Notes under the pieces: generated by a model
The model's database searches: none
What the model was told of the DNA's origin: nothing
Seen by the model: the letters and a program-made list of their open reading frames with translations, nothing else
Program-made: the position numbers and the translations under genes
Part shown: one piece after another, positions 1,432 to 42,735 of the stretch
Layout of the letters: each line of letters opens with the position of its first letter
Position numbering within the stretch: position 1 is the stretch's first letter
Assembly: GCA_002189035.1 (NCBI GenBank)
Contig: NEEC01000014.1
Coordinates: 1,180,501 to 1,244,500 of the forward strand
Direction: 5' to 3'
DNA from: Utricularia gibba
Lineage: Eukaryota; Streptophyta; Magnoliopsida; Lamiales; Lentibulariaceae
DNA: 64,000 bases

Positions 1432-4400
1432 TTACTCCAGATGATAAACTGTGGAGGAAGAGGACAAATTAGTGAATGAAGAATTAGGGGGCCCTTGGAA
1501 CATGAACGTCGCCGGATTCGATGCCGCGGACGACGAGGAGTTCTGGGCAACTGTCGACGACGGTTTACTTTCGGATCCGGCCGGTGGATCGTGCTTGATT
1601 TCTTTCAGTAGTGCTACTACGTCTTTCATCGTCGGCCGATCTTCCGGACGGTTGCTGGTGCACAGAAGCGCGATTCCTAGGGCTTGCAGCATTTCCTGGA
1701 TTTGCGAATCTGGATTCCCTTGGAGTGTTTGATCGATCACTTCCACTGGATTTTTCTTGATTTTCAGATGATCGCGGATCCATTGGATAATGTGCTGCCC
1801 GTCGGGGAACGATTTGTCGATAGGTTCTTTTCCAGTGATTATCTCCATTAAAACAACGCCGTAGCTGTAGACATCGCTTTTCTCGCTTATCCTCGCCATC
1901 GAAGAATACTCTGGAGAACCAGCATTTTTAAGCAAACTTTTGAAAAAACATCTGCTGCGTATTGTTTGAGAAGAAGACGAACCTGGAGCGAAGTACCCAT
2001 ACGAGCCAGCGAATTGAGGGGACGCTAGATACGACGGCGCGGTGGCGGTTGCGTTTTCGATGAATCTGGCGAGTCCGAAATCTGCTAAGCAAGGATCGTA
2101 GCATTCTCCCAAGAGAATGTTGTGCGATTTCACATCGCGGTGGAGAATAGGAGGAACGCAATCATGATGCAGGTAAGCTAATCCCTCTGCAACTCCCAAT
2201 GCGATCTTTAACCGCATTTCCCAGATCACTCGTTCCCTTTTCTCGTGCAGCAATGTACCCAGCGTGCCATTGGGCATGTATTCGTAGAGTAAGAGCTTGG
2301 TCTTGCTGTTGGATGCCCATCCTAGTAGCTTGACGATGTTCCGGTGACGAATGCGGCCCAATGTTGCGATTTCGGATGAAAATGTCGCGATCGATGACTT
2401 GTCCGATGATCGGAATCTCTTCACCGCAATGGTGGAGGGCGAGACTGAACCCGGAGTTGATGTGATCGATACTCTGTAGACAATGCCGGACCGGCCGTGT
2501 CCGATTTCATTGGCACTCGTTAGGCAGTTGACTATCTCGGCGATGGACAGCTCCAGCTTTTGGTAGACTGTTTTCTCCCATGGTGGCCGTAGCTCTGCAT
2601 CTTCATCGATGCTTTGATCGGCGTTTCGAGCTTGATTAGCACGCGACTTTCCTCCGATGACGATGCATATGGCCGTCACCAGTAGCACCACAGCAGTGCA
2701 GAGCAGCACAACCATCGCCACTAGTGCAGATTTCCGGTGTACGGCAGCGGTGGAGTTGCTAGGCAAGCATTCCTTGCTGGAGAGACAAAGCAAGGGGTTG
2801 CCTCGGAGGACACTGTGAGGCAACTTCGCGAAGAACGGTGTATCGGGGAGGTTGCCCGAAAAGTTGTTATCGGAGACATTGAGTACCACAAGATTCGAAA
2901 GCTCCGCGAGGTAATGAAGGTCGCCGGAGAGACTATTGTGAGAAATATCAAGCACTCCGAGTTTGTCCAATGCCTTGAACTCCTCCGGGATCCCACCGGA
3001 AAGATTGTTCCAACTCAAATTCAGTGCGATTTCCAGCTCCGGGATTTTGCCGATGCTCGCCGGAATCGCACCAGTTAACAAATTGCTGCTTAAGTCAAGC
3101 AACTGAAGCCGGGAAAGTGATCCCAGCTCGTCGGGAATGATGCCGGAAAATCTATTTTGTGCGAGAATCAGTTTCGTCAGGGAAGTCAGTGAACCAAGAC
3201 TTGAATCCAATGCAGATTCAATCAAATTGTCAGAAACATCAAGGAACTCGAGAGTGGAAAGCCGATACAAATCTCCAGGTAGATTCCCTGAAAATTGATT
3301 TGAATGCAGATCGAGAAAAGTTAGATTGCCACATACGGAAATCTCTGATGGGATAGTCCCAGAAAGCAGATTCCACCCAAGATCCAAGAAATTAAGATTC
3401 TTCAGTTTCCCCAGAGTCGCGGGCAAGTTTCCGGTGAGCATATTTTCGCTCGCTCTGAACCGAACAAGCGAACTACAGTTTCCGATGTTCGCGGGAATAT
3501 CGCCGGATAGGTTATTAGCCAACACCAAAAGCTTGCTCAGAGTACTCAGTTCGAAAATCCCACTCGGGATTGTACCTCTAAGCGAGTTCTGGGAAATGTC
3601 AACTGCTTGAAGCTTATAGCAGTTAGATAACGCCGCCGGAATCTCTCCCTCGAGGTGATTTTGCCATAGAAACAACAGAGTTAGGTTTGATAGTTTCCCG
3701 ATCTCTGGCGGAATTCCACCGCCGATTTGGTTGTTATCGAGCTCGATTTGAGTAAGTGATGTACAGTTACCCAGCTGAGGAGGAATCTTCCCTGAAATCT
3801 GGTTGATGCTCAGCTGCAGCTCCTGTAACTGCGTCAAGTTTCCGATACTCTCCGGTATAGCTCCGGACAATGAATTCATGGAAACATCGATCACAAGTAA
3901 CTGATAACAGTTACCAAGTTCAGGAGGAATGTTCCCCACCAGATTATTCTTCCATAGAAGGAGATTCAGTAAGTTTTGAAGGTTTCCGAGACTGGAAGGA
4001 ATGGGTCCATTCAGTGAGTTCTCATAGAGATAAATGTTCTGCAGGGAGGAACAATCCCCAATCTCTGGCGGAATTTGGCCGGAAAGAAGAGATGTATAAA
4101 CAGCAAGAGTTTCCAGCTTCTTCAACCGACTGATTGACGGCGGAAGAAAGCCGGAAATAGTCGTCTCCGCCAGCCCGATGAACACCAAATTCGTGCAGTT
4201 TCCGATTTCAGGGGGATAACTCCTTGAAGCTTCTTGTTCCCACCAGCTCTAAGAACCTCAAGGCTTCCCAGGCTCCCAATACTCGCCGGAATCTCGCCGC
4301 TGAGATCGTTGTCATAGAGCAGAAGCTCCACAAGTTGGGTCATGTTCCCTATCTCCGGAGGAATCAGCCCCTGCAACCTGTTTGTCTGCAAGTAAAGCTT

Positions 4401-4829
4401 CTCCAGCCTCTGCAACAAGCAAATCCCACGGGGGATCCGACCTGAGAATTCGTTGTTGCTCAAATCCAACACCTTGAGCTGTTGCAGTTCTCGGATTTGC
4501 TTCGGAATGGTACCCGAGAGATTCGTCCCCGATAAAACGAGGACGTTCAAACTGCGCAGAGAAGTGAAGTTGAGGTACACATTTCCAAGGAGAGCAATGA
4601 AGTTCACATTGAGCTCCACTACTTCGTTCTCCAAGTTGCACGAAACACCGAACCAGGCGCAGGGGGTGTCGTCCGCAATATCCCAGTTGCTTAAAGCTTC
4701 CAAGGATCCATTCAAAGTTTTCTTCCATGACAACAGTGTTTCTCCCTGTGAATTGATCCCAAAAACGCAAGGAGAAACCAGGAAGGAGAAGAAGAAGAAG
4801 AATAGTAAGCATGAAGAATAAACAGGCAT
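1432..4829 (-). CDS. LRR receptor-like kinase, RGI/RGFR type (subfamily XI), with a one-base frame break
   Basis: Predicted plasma-membrane receptor kinase; family members perceive small secreted peptides such as sulfated RGF/GLV. Reading from 4829: signal peptide, Cys-capped LRR N-terminus, roughly two dozen LxGxIP repeats, a membrane helix (SALVAMVVLLCTAVVLLV), then a kinase with glycine loop GHGRSGIVYRV, IAVKRF lysine, HRD (an RD kinase), DFGLA and DVYSYG. RAGG at residues 194-197 matches the RxGG motif reported to contact sulfotyrosine in RGF receptors. Exons are 4829-1983 and 1910-1432. The 72-base intron (1911-1982) splits the APE codon, as is usual in subfamily XI, and is itself open, so naive translation adds 24 false residues. 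The frame breaks at 4211-4215 (plus-strand ggggg): one more G restores IPPEIGNCTNL and a protein of 1108 residues. Assembly error is more likely than a pseudogene. Nearest family by memory: At4g26540/RGI3-like. Confidence 0.88.
1911..1982 (-). other. 72-bp in-frame intron in the kinase activation segment
   Basis: On the minus strand the exon ends CTCCAG, then the intron opens GTTCGT and ends CTCCAG before AGTATTC. Removing it joins FAP to EYSSMARISEK and restores the invariant APE motif. The intron is a multiple of three and has no stop, so it is invisible to ORF finders. Confidence 0.85.
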
Positions 4830-7030
4830 CAGAAACTTCTAACTAGGATGACAAGACACTATCTCCAACCAAGCACCGAGATTTGATCCCTGGAGAAGGA
4901 AAAGGAAACATGTCTGGTGAGGAAATGGATCATTTTGCAGATATAATATCTCAAAAGTGGTAAAAATGTCTACGGGTCCAGAACTCAAGAACCAGCTCAC
5001 CCTCCCTGTTTATCTGCAGACAAATGGAAAGGTACAAGTTCATTTTTTTTTCCTTTTCTTTCCGTTTGTACTCACATGCATCGATCAAATGGTATCGCTA
5101 GCTGTTTCAATGGGCATTATTTAATTTCAACTAGGGGCAGGATCTCTTTGTTTAATTCTGAAAACGAAAGCTGAAAGGGAACTGGAATGGAGATAGCAGA
5201 AAGAACCAACAGGTGACTATCATCCTGTTTTTCACTGTTTTGTTTTATTATGTTTTACATTAAGTACACCTTCCCACTCTGCACATTAATGAAACTTCAC
5301 CAGTTTTCAATCCCTTCACAGACCTAAAAAAAAGGAAAAACATTTTCAAATGACCTTCTAAAGCGAAGAATGAAATGATTATGGAGTGTACCATGACAAA
5401 AAGAGCAGCAGCACTTTCAGTTTAGAAAAGAGAAAAGAAACCCAACAGTAGCCAGTAGGTTATCTACCTCTTTCGAGCTTTCTGTGGCATTTTTCTAACC
5501 CAACAGCTGAACGAGATCAGCCTCAAGATCTGGTAAGCAAAGGGGTCGTGGTCGATTTTGGATGGGTTACTAGTCAAAATCAAGGGAATTGTTATTGGAG
5601 TCCCACCACATGAATGAGGTTTGAGTTTTTGGACTAACATGTGTGTATGTATTAGTGTACAGTCTCCAATACTTCTTATGTATACCACTGCTGATAGATT
5701 AGGTGCTGCTCTTCGAACAGCAATATGGTCACATAGCTAAAGCTATGCTTTCTTAGACCGGACCTGATCAAGTCCAGAACCGGGTACAGTATGGCTTTTT
5801 ATCTCTCATACCCGAAATCTTCTTGTAACGGAGTGATTGGGTATCTGGTTAGTAGATCTACAGTTTTCAAAGCATAGTGGTGCTCAGCCCAATTCCACTT
5901 TATAATTAAATGTGTGGACCTAAGTCTATGTCATACCATAGAATGATGGAATTGGGGCTGGGTTTAGGTATCTGGTAGGATCAGACACCTAGGGACACCA
6001 CATGTGATGGAACCACTGTACAACTGTGTCCAGAGGATCAATTTGAGATGCATGTGAACCCCCCGGCAAAGAAAATGATGCCGAAGAAGCCCCTATAGAG
6101 AATACAACAGCTTCATGTGAGACTCCCATCCAAAGTATACACTGGGTGTACGAGCCCTCACAAAGAGGTGAAAACAGTTTCTACTTATGAACCTAGGCAA
6201 CCATAGGTGTCTTGTCCGGTTTGGGTTTAAGATAAGGATGGATGTTCATCATGATGCACCAGTGTTGTTTCTGAGCTGCATTCCTTAAAGCGTTGAATGA
6301 GGTGTTGGTGTGACAGAGAGAAAAGCAAACAAGAGTAGGAGATGCCAAGTGTTTGTTTCTTTGGGATTTGCACATCTTAGACATGTACAGCAGACAGCAC
6401 AAGACATTGGGGTGAGTTTTATTGGAGGTTCAAGTGCATGTGTCCGCTGAAAGAGTATTGCAATTAGGGAGAGAGAGCAGGAGGGGATCAGAGCACATGT
6501 GACCACATGGTGGATTGCAATTAGGAAATTCCCTTTGGATTTAGGGAGTTTGTGTACTTGGGGTGTCCTGTGCAATCCTTCAACGCACTTACTAGCTGTC
6601 AGCCAGCCACTGTTAGTATTGAATGCCCGTACTGCATATATACAGTGAATCTTACCCTTGTTTCAGAACCGACTCAGGCGACCTCTGAAACAGAAGGCCC
6701 GCAACCGCCCACTGCTCAGCCTGAAATGGTCTTTATTTCCTTTCTTTTGTTTATTTAGAATGAGAATTAAATGATTCTTTCATGGATGTGATTAGAATGA
6801 TGATGTTTTTGATTGTGGAATGTTCATTGATGTCAGAATCTTGTTAAACTTTATAATAATGATCTTTTCTAATTCTAGGGAAATCAGATTTAGAACGTGG
6901 ACCGGATGCAGTGAATTCGAGGAAGGCCCGGCCCCCGTCCTATCTTCTAGGGACGAATGGAACTGGACGATGTATGTAAAGGCCTGAATTGAATCCTGCA
7001 ATGACAACGGAATTGGCGGGATTCCAGATC
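4830..7030. other. Intergenic, 2.2 kb, with an imperfect fold-back
   Basis: No protein gene is supportable. Small minus-strand frames at 5464-5688 and 6193-6575 match nothing I know. The stretch holds an inverted repeat at 5885-5960 (separate entry) and the likely 3' UTR of the LysM gene next to 7030. Confidence 0.5.
5885..5960. repeat. Imperfect inverted repeat, possible small-RNA hairpin
   Basis: CAGCCCAATTCCA at about 5885-5898 pairs with TGGAATTGGGGCTG at about 5947-5960, with one bulged G and some G-U extension outward, around a loop of nearly 50 bases. Arm length and loop size fit a plant miRNA precursor, but neither arm matches a miRNA I can recall. It could also be a relic of a small inverted-repeat element. 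Confidence 0.35.
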
Positions 7031-11225: not shown

Positions 11226-11749
11226 TCACATCTTCTGGGACAAGAGGACGAGGAGTCCCTGCGGACCAACGAGGATCTCGTTGAGGAAACTCACCAGCCC
11301 AAACCACACCACCGGAGTTACGTCTACTCCGGCCAGCGGCGGAATGAGCTTCCTCGTCTGAGCAAGAAACGGCTCCGTCGGAGCATACGCCACCACGTAC
11401 GGGAACTTATCCACCGGTAGTTTCGGGTACCAAGACATGACAATTCGCAATACGAAGAGAAACCCAAACGCCGATAGAAACGGCCCTAGAATCCCGATCG
11501 CCGCCAATGTCGTTCCGCGGTCCAAGTCCATCAGCACCATCGATGACCAGCCGTGGCATTCCTCTGCTGCGGCGGAGGAGAGATGAAGAACGGAGGGGTT
11601 CCCAGAGAACAACTCGGTCTGTGGCCGAGGCCGAGAGTGATACCACCACGAGCACCACCGTGAATTCCTGGGGTTTTTGCAATGGATTTAGGGTTTGTTA
11701 CTCCAAATGAGAACTTGGAAGATAACAAGAGAGCATTTTGCATCGCCAT
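11226..11749 (-). CDS. CCB3: CCB3 (YggT/YlmG family), cytochrome b6 heme-attachment factor, with a frame break near the N-terminus
   Basis: Predicted thylakoid membrane protein of the CCB pathway, which attaches the extra c-type heme to cytochrome b6. The YggT core is complete: ILGPFLSAFGFLFVLRIVMSWYPKLPVDKFPYV and PPLAGVDVTPVVWFGLVSFLNEILVGPQGLL, ending LLSQKM at the TGA. It closely matches Arabidopsis CCB3 as I remember it. The start MAMQNALLLSSKFSF at 11749 looks like a transit peptide but sits in another frame from the core. No intron fits in the space, and one extra base in the 11670-11678 run (plus-strand ggggttttt) would join them. The crossing point is uncertain, since all three frames are open nearby. 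Internal Met codons would give a protein without targeting peptide. Confidence 0.85.
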
Positions 11750-11999
11750 TGTTACTTCTGCTCCCACTCTGTGCTCCGCCCACGAGCTGCAAATGCTAAG
11801 CAGCGCTACTTCTCTTGTACATACTTATCCAAAACATGTGATCCATATTCAAAGCTTTATCCTTTGATCCAAAAAACTTGAAATGACAAAAGCCCACATA
11901 ACAGGATGCAGTTCTTGCTTGAGTTTCACTCAGAACAACACGAACAACTATCACATACAAATCTCCAAGTTTTACGAGCTTGAAATGTTGAAGGGATTG

Positions 12000-13030
12000 T
12001 TAATTCTTTGCAGGATCACTGAAGAAGCTGTTGAGGGTTGGCATGATCTCAGGTTTCCTGTTTTGGACGAATTTCCTGAGGAAATGCTCCTTGTATTTGA
12101 ACCCCTCATCGAAATTCTCCAGCACACCAGCAGCTCTGCCTTGCTTGCTCACACTGTGACAAATATAACAGCAAAAAACCATTATTTATCACTAATCAGT
12201 TCTAGTCATCCCTTATAAATGACAGACTGTTGAACCCCCTGAATGCACACATATTTAGCTGTGTGTTTAGAATGCTGGGGATAGATCTATTCAAGGATCA
12301 AAGCTGGAGCAAAGGTAGAGGCACTTTGGATGAGCATTGATCACAATTCATCACCCATGAGGCATTGTTTATGGGTTCAGAACACTCACTATTACAACAT
12401 GGACAACAAGTTCGACAAGAACTGCTGGCGCCAGCTCAAAGCCGTCTCAAACAAGAACCAACAAAAGCGATGTTCAGTTTATATAAATCCCATTCCCCTG
12501 CAAAGGGTAGGCCTCATTCTTCGCTTCCTAGTCTATTGCTCTAATAGAGTAGGCCTCACAGAAACAAAATCTCATTAAAACTCCTTCCACAAAAAGGTAT
12601 GGAGTTTGAGATTTGACTTGAGATAAATTCAGCAGAAAAAAGAAAAGGTTTTTCATTGCAATAAAGAAGAAGAATTCCCATCCGTGAACTAGCGGGATAA
12701 ACTCTATCCTTCCTGACCGCAAATCGAATCAAGTAAAACTAATTCTGACTCAAAACAATCGCTAAAACGGTAATTATAAGGAGAAACAGAGGGATATCTA
12801 CCGGACTTCAGGGTTAATCGTGATATTACGAACCAACTGAAAAGCACAGATCCCCAAGGCAACACCCGTAGCTGCAAACAGCGGGTACGCCTGAAAAAAA
12901 ATCACAGATTCATGCACACACACAACCCATCATGGCAACACTCGGTGTGAAGAGAAGAGCAGATCGATCCCGATCGGGAAGATCCAAATCCACAAACCTC
13001 GGGCCTCAACCAGCGGCTAGCCGACGCCAT
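12000..13030 (-). CDS. B12D-like mitochondrial protein
   Basis: Small mitochondrial inner-membrane protein of the plant B12D family, linked to respiratory chain function and induced in seeds or under low oxygen; the exact role is not settled. Exons 13030-12998, 12890-12802 and 12153-12000 join in frame to 91 residues starting MASASRWLRPEAYPLFAATG. One membrane helix (AAYPLF-like to GICAFQLVRNI) is followed by NPEVR, RAAGVLENFDEGFKYKEHFLRKFV and the conserved end KPEIMPTLNSFFSDP. Length and order match Arabidopsis B12D (88 residues by memory). The promoter side abuts the RING gene's 3' end about 250 bases away. Confidence 0.92.
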
Positions 13031-13284
13031 CTCCAACAGCAGGGATCAGAGAGAGAGAGCGTGTAGACGGAAGAATCGAGCTTAAAGTGAAGCCTCAACC
13101 AACCATCCGTCGACAAGTGTCTAGTTAAAAAAGACTACTTTGATCAATCACTACACTCACGATTAATCATTGGTAGAATATTTCAGACCCACAAGTTTCG
13201 AATTTCCTGTCCACAGAAAGCAAAACAAGGTAACCAGAACGGGCTCTCGCTTTTTCATGTACAAAAAGAAAGCAAACCACAAGT

Positions 13285-14661
13285 CTAGCACTTCGTGAGC
13301 ATGCTCCAGGTGCGTGCCACGTGGAACCTCAGGCACCCCCCCCCGTTCACTGCTGGCTCTCCCACGGTCACCCTTGGCTCGTATGGCTTTCTGCATCCTG
13401 GGCAACGCCCGTCTTCCTCGAGGATTCTCTTGTGACAGAAGAGGCAGATCCTGAACCCACATGGGCAGGGGAGAAAATTTGAGTCCGTGTAGTCAAAATC
13501 CTCGAAACATATTGGACAAGAAGTGGTCACGGGCACAACATTCTTGCGGCCGTAACTGGGCTGTCGGCCATTGGGGTGGTGCTTAGAGTTCATGGTTAAA
13601 GTCGGCAAGCTTCGCGGCCGGAATGCATCATCTGGCCTCCAAGCACAGGGATTCTCAACAGCTCTTCGGTTAGGTGTGCCCGTCATAATATGGATTGCAC
13701 CCACTCGAGGAACAGTTTGTTCTGCCATATCATCCTTATCAGGTGTACGCTTTTCTCCATTAACTTGCTGCTTTTCATCAGATACACCCAAGGCATCAGC
13801 CATTGCTTCCCAGTCATCAAAGCAGTCATCCTCCCCTCCATCGCCCTCACTCACGTTGCCTGGAGAGAATCCACTACTGCTGCTGCTGCTGCTCTGATCA
13901 CTGAAAAAACCATTCCCAAAGCTTGCCATTCTAGCCATGTATTGGGATGTAAGGATCATGGGATCAATTTCACTGATAGTACTATTCTGACAGCGGTTCA
14001 TGCTTGCATTGAAATTGACCATGGAATCTTGGTTGCCATCATATACGCTTGCAGAGTGGCTAGTTGGGCTGCTGGGGGAAATGACTTTGAATCACTGGAA
14101 TTGTTCGTTGATGGTGTATCATCATCCTTACTTCTTGGTTCCATTTCCAGCTTTTCCAAATGATTTGGTGACCTTTGGCTCCCTAACACCCCATCACTTC
14201 CTTCCTCCTTTGCCATATTCTTATTTCTCACTGGAAGGAAATGCAGCTCTCAAAATCAAGAATTGATACAAAAATACAATATATAAAAGAAGAATCCACG
14301 CCCATAAAACAAGATTCACGAATACCAAATAAATGAACTACTACAACCACAAAGCGTGCAAGATTTCTAAACACACCCTGGGAAAGCCACTGCTCGCGAC
14401 GAGCATCAAGCTTGCACTGCTTCAACTTTGACAAACGGTTCGCCTGCAGAGCAGAGATATCCGAAATGAACGCCCATCCCAACGGGCAACAAAAACAATC
14501 TCAAATTGATGAAAAATAACGATAATCGAAAAAACATATCAAAGCATCTTTCAGCAATCAACAACGAGTAAACAACATCAGCATCGGAAACGCAAATGCA
14601 TTAAAAAACGAAAACGTGCCCTCTTTTTCTTGGCGAAATCCCTGGGATTCGATGAAGCCAT
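13285..14661 (-). CDS. RING-finger protein (CNOT4-like C4C4 RING), with a one-base frame break
   Basis: Likely E3 ubiquitin ligase of a plant family with a C-terminal RING and no RRM. Exons: 14661-14620 (MASSNPRDFAKKKR), 14443-14377 (ANRLSKLKQCKLDARREQWLSQ) and 14230-13285. The RING reads CPICFEDFDYTDSNFLPCPCGFRICLFCHKR and CPGCRKPYEP, eight Cys as in CNOT4/NOT4. Upstream are a basic helix, a Ser-rich acidic stretch and CFDDWEAMADALG. The first intron seems to use a GC donor (AGG|GCACG) with a normal AG acceptor. The frame breaks at 14074-14078 (plus-strand ggggg); a sixth G joins DSKSFPP to SSPTSHSASVYDGNQDSM. Arabidopsis At5g62910 is the closest I can name, from memory. Confidence 0.8.
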
Positions 14662-16053: not shown

Positions 16054-16546
16054 TTTCACCGAACACCACTCAATATATCGATTGAAACCCACCTCCTCCC
16101 CTCGCTCCGATGCCCACCTTGAACCGAAAACCCCTAACGAGCACCAGAATTTATCGCCAAGGTCGGTAACGGAAAGAAAAGCAGAAATTAAGCGCTACAA
16201 ATTTATGCGGTTGGCCAAATAAATAAATAAACCCTAATACAATCCCCAATTCTGGAAGGTCCTATCATCCGTACACACACTAACCTCGAGTATGAATAGT
16301 AATTAGTGTTTTTTAAAAATATTAATTCTTTTAATGGAGTTTCATCCGTACACACACTAACCTCGAGTATGAATAGTAATTAGTGTTTTTTAAAAATATT
16401 AATTCTTTTAATGGAGTTTTAGGTCATTGAAGAAAAAAAACAACACCAGCAATAACTTATCACCAAGTGTGTTACATGTTACAATTCAACTGGCAACTCT
16501 CAGATCTTCATCTGATGGAACTGTCATACTTCTTATGGAGTTTCAT
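16054..16546. other. Intergenic with a 77-bp tandem duplication
   Basis: About 0.5 kb between the small membrane protein and the coiled-coil gene. Its main feature is the exact repeat at 16265-16418. Confidence 0.6.
16265..16418. repeat. Exact tandem duplication, 2 x 77 bp
   Basis: The 77 bases 16265-16341 (starting TCATCCGTACACACACTAAC) recur without mismatch at 16342-16418. Perfect identity implies a recent event or an assembly duplication. The unit contains no coding sequence. Confidence 0.95.
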
Positions 16547-20060: not shown

Positions 20061-23000
20061 TCACGTGGAAACCAGGTTCATCTCGTGGGGTCGAAGAGCC
20101 CCTTGAACTATTTCTTGCACTGACCTGTTGCGTCTGCACACTTCTGATAATTCTTCGATGGGATTGAGGAGACCGTTCATGGCTGAGCCAGAGGCTATGT
20201 CTGATAACGCTTGCAAGAATCTGGTGGTTTCAGCCACTGTGGCTGCATTGGGTGGAATCAGGGAAACACTGTCCTTGGCCCACTCCAGCGCTTGTGCACC
20301 ATAGGCCCGAGTCAGGGCTAGGAGGGTATAAGTTACCTTTGGGATCAAATGAAGGAAAGGGGTGATTAAGAATCAAAATTCGCACGCATCAGGTGATGAG
20401 GATTTCAGATATTACTGTTTCTAGTCGGGAGCTTGGGAGAGCACCGGTGAGAGCAGCAATGAGAATTCGGGTGATGGCAGGGCCTCTGGGGATGATTACA
20501 CTGTCCCGGATCGACACATAGATCTTTCCTTGGGATGAGTTGCTGGCGTCGAAAACATCTGATAAGAAGCTCATTATGGACTTGGAGGCTTCCCTGCAGA
20601 TTAACAAAGTAATGTAACAACGGCCAAGCATACCACCATGCAAATAACAATGGCAAGTAATTCACAGAAACTAGTACCGCTCCGTATGATCATTTGCATG
20701 GTAATTATGTAGAGCAGTGAAAAGGAGCAGTGAGAACTTCATTTAGTAAACCAGACACACGTTGCAGCCAAATGGGGTAATAAATCAAGAAGCAGGCTAC
20801 TGATCCATGAGGAAATATTGATTGTATGTCCATCAGTTAGGAAAGTTGAAGCAAACAGATGTCCTGAATGAGTGATGTAATCTATGCAGCCGTAATCAGT
20901 TGCACAAGAGAATAAACCACTTGTTATATATCATGCATATTACGACGATGCAAGCACAGCAGGGAAAAGTGGGCACCTGTGTTGTACCGTGACGCCTATC
21001 ATCGAACAATCTACCAATGAAGGAAAGACCGAAGACTGAAAAAACAAATGAGGACAATAACGTATACACCTTGATGCCAACAAGAAACAGTCATCTGCCA
21101 AGTCAGGGCGGGATGTGAAATCCTGCAAAGAGTCATTGATTTTAAGTTGCAGCAGCAGGTAAAATCTCAAGAATAATATTTGGAGGTGTTTAACGCTGAA
21201 TGACCTGAAAATTTGTAAGCAAAATTGTTGTGTGGTAGAACAGCGACTCCAGAAGGATCCTCAAATAGTTTGCACAGACGGGATCTGATCCAAAGATCTG
21301 ACAGAGTGAGGAAAAAGAAACACGATTAGGATACATGAGCACCAAAAACTACTAGGTGACATCAAATTAAAGGAGATGGCAACCTTGACTACTTCGCTGG
21401 AAAGATACAAGAAACATGGCTGCGGATGCTGCCTGTACAAACCCTGTATCTCCTCTAGCATTACACCGACTGCGACTGCCATTAGAGTTTTGGAGGTCCT
21501 TACCTAGAAATGCAAGAGTAATAATCAGGAAAAATTAAATAAAACGAGTAGGAAGCCTGTGGACAAAAAATGTCACCGCAGAAAGCTTGTAGATAATGAT
21601 CTGAACAATTTAATACTCATAGAGGTGAATTTATAATATTTTACTCTCATCAACAATACAGTTAGACAAGCTAGAAACTGTGCAAGACCGAAACTCTTAG
21701 ACAATGATGAACTTACAGCATTTTTACATGCACGACAAAGAGATTCCATGGTACGCGTGTCCCATGCACGACTGCAACAGAAAACAGCAGCTTGACCTTC
21801 CACTGTTCAAATGTCAAAAAAAAAAAAAAACTGGCACTAACATGTCAAATATTGCCTTGAAGACTGGCCAAAGTTTTTGAACTGCATCTGCAACAGCTTC
21901 TGGATGATTCACATGTCTGGATGGTAGCACAAATACCTCATCATTGGTGGAAAAAAGAACAGAAAACAGATGCTCGCAAGTGTACACCTAAATATATTTG
22001 CTAGCCGATCGATATGCACTGTAAGCTCGCGGGCTGGTTTTTGGCCCAGCACAGCAGGGCCCTGTCTAATTATCTCCTGCAAATTTTTTAACCAAGCTAA
22101 TAATCCACCATATAGTATACGAAAACTTAACAAATATAATATAAACCTGTAAGGAAGCCACAGAAGGCATGCATAATGCCTCTAGTGCTTTCTTGGCATG
22201 CTCAGAAGGAAGTTCAGTGACAATCATGCTGTTGAAACAAATTCTAAAATAAGTCACTTACAAAATACGGTTATAAGCTTCCTAATTTAGGCCTACCTTA
22301 GGGCTTCAACAAGATGCAATGATTCTTCGGGAGACACCTTTAGAGGACCATCCCTGTGACTGCTCTTTGATATATCTGGAAGAGTCCGTCTAAGGACATG
22401 CACAGCTTTTTCTTGCAATCTACGGTAAGAGTATGCGGGAAAACATCTTAGAAAGAATTTCTGTTGATCAAGCACAAATGCAGCCAACATGGTTACAGTG
22501 GAAAAGGTTAAAGATGTTGATATGAATATAAAAAGGTTTCACAATGTTAAGCTCCAGCTAGTGGAAAAATGAAGTGGCAGCCAAGAAAATGCCAAAAAAA
22601 AATGCAATACCAGTGAAGAAATTGAAAACGAAGTCACACATGAAATTAGAGGCTCGCCCTTTGGGGAGTGAAAAAAACAAACTGATCGTGAAAGGACTTT
22701 ACCATCACAGATATGCCGAAATGCTAATGCAGCAGCTGCTGCTGTTTCTTCAAAACTCATCCCATGGACAAGAATATCTACGAATTGGGGCAAGAATGAA
22801 AGACCATTGGGTGCAGCATCAAGCCACTTTGAATAAGCTCCAATTGTTAAGCACACTAGTGTGAAGGCAGAAAAGAAAATGAAATCTCAGCACAGTATAT
22901 AAGAAACAAAATCATCAAGCGAATCACAGCATTGAAGTGTTAGTGAGTCATGGAAGCAATCACCTGTCTGCTGAAGCTGTGGCTGATGAGGGAGCTTTGG

Positions 23001-29141: not shown

Positions 29142-31452
29142 CTATTTAGTAAGTGGAGCCTTGTGGACAAATCTACCAGCGCATATAACAAAAAAGAGCA
29201 ACAAGTTCAGGGTCTCCATGGCGGCGATGAGGTAGAAGAAGTATTCCAGTCTTCCGTGGTTGAGATCGTCCGGCAGCCACTTCGTCGTCGAATTCACCGC
29301 CGTTACGAGGACACTGTTCAAGTAGCTGGCTAATCCATAGCCGCAGCAGAAGAGAGACATGGCCACGCTCTTCATATTCTCCGGGAACTGCTTGTACAGA
29401 AACTCCAATACTCCGATCACATAAAACGCCTCCGACAATCCGGCGAGAGCCAGTTGCGGTATCAGCCAGTTAGCCGACATGGCGGAGATGCCTCCCTTAT
29501 GGGGGACGACCCCGAGTAACGGCCGTGTCAGCGCAATTTCTCGGCGACGATTCTCCACCACTGCCGATACCACCATCGTCAAAACGGCCAACACCAGTCC
29601 GGTTCCCATTCGTTGATTCAGTGTGAGGCCCTGTTCTTTTCCGGTGATTCGCCGGAGTAGGGGGACGAGGAGAAGATCGTAGATCGGGAGCCATAAGGTG
29701 ATGGTGAGCCAGGCAAAGGCAGTGAATGCGCCTGGAGGGATTTTGAAGCCGCTGGATCCGAAACGCCGATCGCATTGAACAGATTGTAGCACTGTATACG
29801 TTTGCATTTGAGTTAAGACGATGAAGTATATAACCTCCGGGATCCACATCGGGAGTGCTCTGATCACGCACTTCAGCTGCTCAACTTGTTGCACGCTTCG
29901 GAGTCTCCACGGCTCTGCCGCCGATCCATCGGCGGCAAATCGGTCGTCGGGCACCACGATCGCAGCTTTGTTCAAGCACCTCCCCATCATTAGTTCCACA
30001 GAGGAAATCAGCTGAGTGCCCACAACTTATCTTTGCAGTATAAACCAAATAAGTACTCACCTGAGCTTCTGTGTAAAAGCAAGCTGAACGTTGATCGAGT
30101 CCTTGGGAATGTGGTTGAACAAGGAGCTACATGGCTGCGGAGGAAGCTCCAGCTTCCACTTCTTCACCGCAGCAACCAGCGTTTGGACCATGCTCGTGAA
30201 GGGACTCCCCTCCGGCAGAACCTTGACGTAAATCCTGGTCCCGGCGAAGAAAAACAGACAGCCCAACAGCATCAACGCGGTCGGAATCCCGAACCCAAGA
30301 GTCCAACTCACGTTGCTTTGAACATAAACGACCACCGTAACAGACACCAGCATGCCGAAGGTGTAGGTCAAGTAATACCAAGTGAAGAAGCTATTGATCC
30401 CCCTTTTCCCTTCACTTGTTTTCGGATTGAACTGATCGACTCCGAAGGCCAGGTTGCATGGCCGGATTCCGCTTGCGCCGATCACGAGGAGACCCAATCC
30501 GGAGTACAGCAGCGCGAGCTGCCCCGACGAGACCCCGGCGCATATTTCCCCCCGGCAAGGAGGAGGACGCAAGCTTGCGAATGCTGATGTCATGGTTAGA
30601 GTCAACATGCCCTATACATAAATAAAAAAAAAAAAAAAAAACAGCTTCGATTTACAATAATGTTGAATAATACCTAAATAATCAAATTCTTTTATAATAT
30701 ATTCCCCTTCAAAAAACCATTTCTAACTAACTTTAAATCAGAATTATGTAAATTCTTAAAAAAAAAAAATTTCTAAATTTTTTATTTCTTTAAAACAGAC
30801 TTAGCTCGTATTTGTCACATATGTCAAATATAAATGATAAATAATCAATTTCATAAATGTTTTTAAATACTCTTCAGCATAATCACTCGACAAAGTATAA
30901 TTTATAATCTATCAATAAATACGAATACGAAAAATCAATGTTTTTCATACACTAAATTGGCATGAATACATAATTAATCCATTATATACTTTAGAAAATT
31001 GTATATAATAAACTTTTTTTCTCAAATTTTATAAGTATAATTAAACATATCTAGTTTTTGGTGATTGATGGCTTACCAGAAAGGAGGCGATGCAAGTGAC
31101 CCCAATGACCTTGTAGCGACCAAGGTACGTGTCCGCAAGAAAGGCACCGATCAAGGTCCCAAAATTGCACGTTCCAGTGAAAACATTGACGATCTTGATG
31201 GCCCCGATGGATGTCATATTGAACATGGTGATTAGATATATGATGAGATTAACCGTGATTCCGAGCGATCCGAGCCTCTCGAAGGTCTCGTTTCCTAGTG
31301 AAAGATAGATCGAAAACAAAACATAAGAACAAAAACCGAATAATTCGTTTCGGTTTTGAATCAAAACCTATGAGAAAAGGCATCGCTTTGAATCCTCTGT
31401 AGTGTGGCTGCTTCTCCATTCTTGCTGCTCCAAGAGGTGGAGATTGCATCAT
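29142..31452 (-). CDS. NRT1/PTR family transporter, NPF2 subfamily
   Basis: Proton-coupled 12-helix plasma-membrane carrier; NPF2 members move nitrate, glucosinolates or other metabolites, and the substrate cannot be read from sequence. Exons 31452-31368, 31294-31077, 30611-30061 and 29979-29142 join in frame to 563 residues. Motifs: NETFERLGSLGITVNL contains the ExxER proton-coupling motif; FLADTYLGRYKVI, GASGIRPCNLAFGVDQF, FFTWYYLTYTFGMLVS and the CLNKAAIV loop are family hallmarks, and KQFPENMKSVAMSLF marks the late helices. The N-terminus (MMQSPPLGAARMEKQPHYRGFKAMPFLI) is short and the C-tail after the last helix is only a few residues. By memory it resembles NPF2.11 and NPF2.13; the subgroup is uncertain. 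Confidence 0.9.
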
Positions 31453-41743: not shown

Positions 41744-42735
41744 ATGGTATTGGCAGATGGCCTGCTTTGCTCATTCCTCCGCCTCCTCCCCGATTGGTTC
41801 AGAAAGTAAGCTGCTGAAATCATGGAGTGCTCCCTCCTTCCCAAATGGGATACTCAAGACTGTTGCCCTTTTTCTATTACAGTTTTCAGGATTGATCCCT
41901 CCGATCCGGATCAACAAAGGTTAATGCTGCTGCTAGTCTGCATGTGGATCAGAATGCTGCTTCTTTAGAAGGTGAAAGACATCTCAAACGTCATGTGGAT
42001 GACGTTTCCAGAGAGAAGGAACGCGTGTTTAGCTCAGGGGAAGCTGCTGTGAAGTTGCCACTTCAGAAAGAAAGGCGCCACCAAACGGCTGATTCCTTTT
42101 GCTGGGAAGGGACTGCTTGTTTGGTTATCTCATTTGCCATTTCCTTGCTATGTTTCTAATGCCCAGATTACTTACTGAATGTTTCTCACTTTGCTCTTCG
42201 TTGTTAAATCCTCTCCTTGGTACGGCAGCCCCTCCCAAGAACCAGAATCCGATGAAGCTGATGCCGGAGGCTACAGCCTTCTTAAAGGCCAAACAACTGA
42301 GTGAGAGTCAGAAAAAGAATGGTTCTACTGCTGCTGCTGCTGTCAATGAAACACCTAGAAAAAAGATACAGGTAGAAGAAGGTATTCCTAGAATCACCTT
42401 TAGTTTCTACTCCCACATCATTTGAAGATGGGAGGGTGCAGGGAGAGAGCCCAGTGAGTAGACCTGTTTCTCTTTAATCAATTCATCCATGTAACATGAG
42501 AATAGTGAAGTAGAAATTTGCATGAGTTTTCATTTGGGCTCATCTGTTTTACAACAGATGGGAAAAGGGACGCTAAATGGGGTAGATAGATAACACTACA
42601 AATGGTCATGGCAGTACAGAAGAGAAACTGGGACTGCAAGATTTAAAGAATCACCAGAGTTCCAGCAGCCCCTCCACTCCATGGAAGAAGCAGCGCAAAC
42701 CAGCCAGTTTTACTTCCCTTCTCACCAGAAAATGA
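41744..42735 (+). CDS. Unnamed four-exon gene, basic C-terminus, with a one-base frame break
   Basis: I do not recognise the family. Exons 41744-41805 (MVLADGLLCSFLRLLPDWFR), 41890-42118, 42229-42371 and 42586-42735 agree in phase only if one base is added near 41916-41918 (aaa). That joins KIDPSDPDQQ to KVNAAASLHVDQNAAS and gives 194 residues. The middle is charged (GERHLKRHVDDVSREKERV, KLPLQKERRHQTADSF); the tail is Ser-rich then basic (STPWKKQRKPASFTSLLTRK). No membrane helix or known motif is evident; a nuclear location would fit the basic tail. Two splice sites are weak (donor T|GTTTGG at 42118, acceptor GGGTAG at 42585), so boundaries there are tentative. Its last 14 coding bases overlap the PDCB gene on the other strand. 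Confidence 0.55.

Follow-up and report, generated by a model that had tools for sequence, protein, structure and literature searches.

Genes and reading-frame breaks in the window

The stretch of DNA analysed here (the window; 64,000 nucleotides, C98:1180501-1244500) lies inside a 3.1-Mb contig of the plant assembly, and our genome searches covered 100 Mb of that assembly in 516 contigs. A preliminary description of the window proposed that five genes, encoding an RGI-type LRR receptor kinase, CCB3, a RING protein, MOS14 and a product at 41.7 kb, have each lost a single base at a mononucleotide run. Comparison with related sequences confirms a net loss of one base in the kinase, RING, MOS14 and CCB3 genes, and the frames of the gene at 41.7 kb can be joined in another way (Table 1). 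The named runs are present in the letters, as is GGGGTTTTT at about 11670-11678, the place first given for the CCB3 break.

Table 1. Reading-frame breaks and a long homopolymer in the window
Feature	Position	Strand	Run	Basis or remark
RGI-type (At4g26540-like) LRR receptor kinase, gene about 1432-4838: net -1 break in the LRR part	4211-4215	-	GGGGG	5hyx and C328 paralogue
CCB3 (YGGT family): net -1 break	11589-11602	-	most likely gggg, 11595-11598	Frame comparison with C409 relative
C9 run in RING coding sequence	13336-13344	-	C9	In frame; long run not shortened out of frame
RING (zf-RING_4) gene, about 13285-14230: net -1 break	14074-14078	-	GGGGG	C409 duplicate, pairwise DNA alignment
MOS14 / transportin-3: net -1 break inside one exon	about 22352-22354	-	CCC	4c0p alignment, PF24140 match
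Gene at 41.7 kb: alleged break	41916-41918	+	AAA	Alternative: 49-nt GT..AG stretch, 41920-41968

In the receptor kinase gene, the frames on the two sides of the break (..LEVLRAGGNKKLQGVIP before it, PEIGNCTNLV.. after it) meet with no gap on the At4g26540 ectodomain (5hyx). The second frame matches this ectodomain from residue 150 on (E 8e-178), which is where the match of the first frame ends. The two frames also join without a gap on an uninterrupted 3-kb paralogue at C328 that spans the place of the break, and frameshift-aware alignment finds exactly one break and no second. The ectodomain and the paralogue agree on the net loss of one base at this site.

The RING gene is duplicated at C409, where the copy is a single open frame through the break site, and by alignment with this copy the window is exactly one base short at the run named in the preliminary description. 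This is the only break in the gene, and the alignment remains in frame across the C9 run to the common stop. The duplicate is part of a block (L061, C409:1704500-1712000) that matches window positions 11226-14300 and contains the intact RING duplicate together with a decayed copy of CCB3; this arrangement suggests an old duplication, segmental or of the whole genome.

The CCB3 relative at C409, although open at the site compared, is a relic from which membrane segments have been lost. It tracks the ATG frame of the window past 11670, and the frame switches further on, with the YGGT domain lying downstream of the break. The net -1 break in CCB3 is therefore retained, although not at 11670-11678, where the ATG frame still matches the C409 relative; that placement was rejected, as it is off by some 75 bases.

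In MOS14, two adjoining stretches of one exon lie in different frames, with nothing between them that could hold an intron, and each aligns to transportin-3 (4c0p) with a short local gap only, which confirms the proposed net -1 break. When short MOS14 exon queries were compared with the PDB, the matches were to bacterioferritin and repeated ubiquitin and were dismissed as due to chance, and another such query put ubiquitin first; transportin-3 was the sole match to a longer query. For the gene at 41.7 kb, the GT..AG stretch would likewise join the frames, and we found neither a Pfam family in a Pfam search nor a relative or second copy in a search of its own genome. An NPF transporter gene (29142-30611) was also considered as a split gene and rejected, since the apparent split is an ordinary intron at about 29979-30060. 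An exact 77-bp tandem duplication, which may be real or an assembly artefact, is present between genes at 16265-16418.

Homopolymer context of the breaks

The letters bear out the presence of mononucleotide runs at all five places, yet this is weak evidence alone. A run of at least 3 is touched by 61% of the 11-bp stretches of the window, so that little can be read from the sites in MOS14 and at 41.7 kb, whereas a G/C run of at least 5 is touched by only 1.1%, which gives weight to the kinase and RING sites. The longest runs in the window extend to 18 for A/T and 9 for G/C; runs of at least 9 exceed the Markov expectation, with long A/T runs well above it. Long homopolymers in the window thus showed no general shortening or depletion, either in the Markov comparison or at the in-frame C9 run, and length-dependent truncation of homopolymers was rejected. 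Such depletion marks one sub-type of consensus indel error, not every one.

Frame breaks across the GRAS family

The GRAS family was chosen for a genome-wide test because frame errors show well in its conserved, mostly intronless genes. Among some 39 distinct loci, about 24 have an unbroken frame from end to end and 12-13 have one or more net -1 breaks, spread over about a dozen contigs; no net +1 break was found among these loci outside the intron-bearing ones. The broken genes are usually free of other damage, and most have no stops. The remaining loci are three with probable introns, one true pseudogene and one that is too divergent. Each of the three (L035, L038 and L041) has a probable intron inside the GRAS domain, which is unusual in a mostly intronless family and first appears as a frame change in the aligner; L035 has a -1 break in addition. 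The pseudogene (L045, C244:2104700-2107200) carries stops, deletions and frame changes, unlike the genes with single breaks.

In control runs the aligner made no false calls in 25 intact genes and recovered all planted lesions with the correct sign (75/75 deletions and 75/75 insertions). Because recovery is symmetric and false calls are absent, the one-sided -1 result does not reflect a bias of the method.

The longest run averages 3.68 at the 19 GRAS break sites (which include near-duplicate copies and some multi-break genes, and are not all independent), compared with 2.51 ± 0.21 in random coding intervals, and none of 2,000 random draws reaches the observed mean. Runs of at least 5 are present at 6 of the 19 sites, against 0.56 expected. 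Several GRAS genes of different subfamilies are broken near a common conserved Gly-Gly-Pro-Pro motif, the codons of which yield G and C runs. Breaks outside runs of at least 3 are the first in L028 and those in L037 and L044. Since long runs are kept and some losses lie outside runs, the label of homopolymer error given in the preliminary description is too broad, and the breaks are better described as single-base losses favouring short G/C runs.

Loci assembled more than once

One GRAS locus is present in three contigs, at the end of C414, at the start of C416 and in C422 (L048, L049 and L050), which overlap and are unmerged, so that gene copy numbers are inflated there. Using BLASTN, the 2,223 bp overlap of C414 and C416 has 0 mismatches and 23 gap openings, and C416 and C422 differ over 8,673 bp by 6 mismatches and 9 gaps. 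The GRAS gene is broken by one base in C416 and whole in C422, and the other 288 of 288 residues are identical. A second redundant locus was assembled in both C316 and C412; over 4,128 bp the two differ by 1 mismatch and 10 gaps, every missing base being in the short contig C316. The counts given are those of BLASTN; MAFFT realignment of the redundant contigs changed some indels into substitutions.

Allelic variation is expected to show mostly substitutions. The excess of indels over substitutions between these copies therefore marks the differences as consensus errors. The redundant copies come from short contigs or from the ends of contigs. Consensus quality there is usually below that in the interior of a 3.1-Mb contig, so the absolute error rate of these copies may exceed that of the window. 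This direct proof comes from loci other than the window sites; no second assembled copy of the kinase, CCB3/RING or 41.7-kb sites was found in the 516-contig genome set.

Origin of the breaks

The assembly carries single-base losses of this sign and context. We consider it very probable (roughly 93%) that the breaks are residual consensus errors of the plant assembly, an artefact of an ordinary and known kind, and not biology. The assembly is probably a long-read one, given its multi-megabase contigs. Consensus calling would drop single bases, most often in short G or C runs, at a loss rate of perhaps one per 2-4 kb of coding sequence, and the affected genes would most likely read through in the plant. 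That the window sites in particular are errors, not true mutations, we infer from the genome-wide rate. The window has four confirmed breaks in what gene spans suggest is roughly 16-17 kb of sequence recognisable as coding, or about one per 4 kb, compared with about one per 2-2.5 kb in the GRAS genes, and the window is therefore not unusual for the assembly.

An alternative is that these are real frameshifts, produced by slippage at runs, in young pseudogenes or loss-of-function alleles. G/C runs do mutate by slippage, and this genome contains true pseudogenes, among them the decayed copy of CCB3 at C409 and L045 in the GRAS family. However, about a third of the GRAS loci would each need a recent and independent hit, in every case a -1 and mostly with no further lesion, and the indel-dominated disagreement between separately assembled copies would be left unexplained. 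The stops and deletions expected of pseudogenes are also absent from both the kinase and the RING gene. We regard this explanation as very unlikely; the same lesion with the same sign in a third of a gene family, and separately assembled copies differing mainly by indels, favour the shared consensus error that was originally proposed over five real mutations. There is a slim chance that, among the errors, one of the four confirmed sites conceals a true frameshift that arose recently in the sequenced plant; the kinase or RING loss, each with an intact duplicate elsewhere, could be the most plausible candidate. Less probable again is that unrecognised introns or wrong gene models account for some of the breaks, as the three intron-bearing GRAS loci and the joinable frames at 41.7 kb might suggest, since the frames of the kinase, RING and MOS14 genes abut at the break with no space for an intron.

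Consensus errors of this type are well described. Gene-fragmenting indels that persist in long-read assemblies are treated, for example, in the Kastor (PMC12007338) and Polypolish (PMC8812927) reports, and the breaks here resemble those cases in that single-base errors split or truncate predicted genes and are associated with homopolymers. They differ from those cases in that the losses favour short G/C runs while long runs are kept, and in that the assembly is that of a plant.

The lost-base breaks carry no wider biological meaning. Apparent gene loss or truncation in this assembly is unreliable, as one locus in three of a well-conserved family appears broken, and claims of gene loss, pseudogenes or family size made from it need reads or polishing first.
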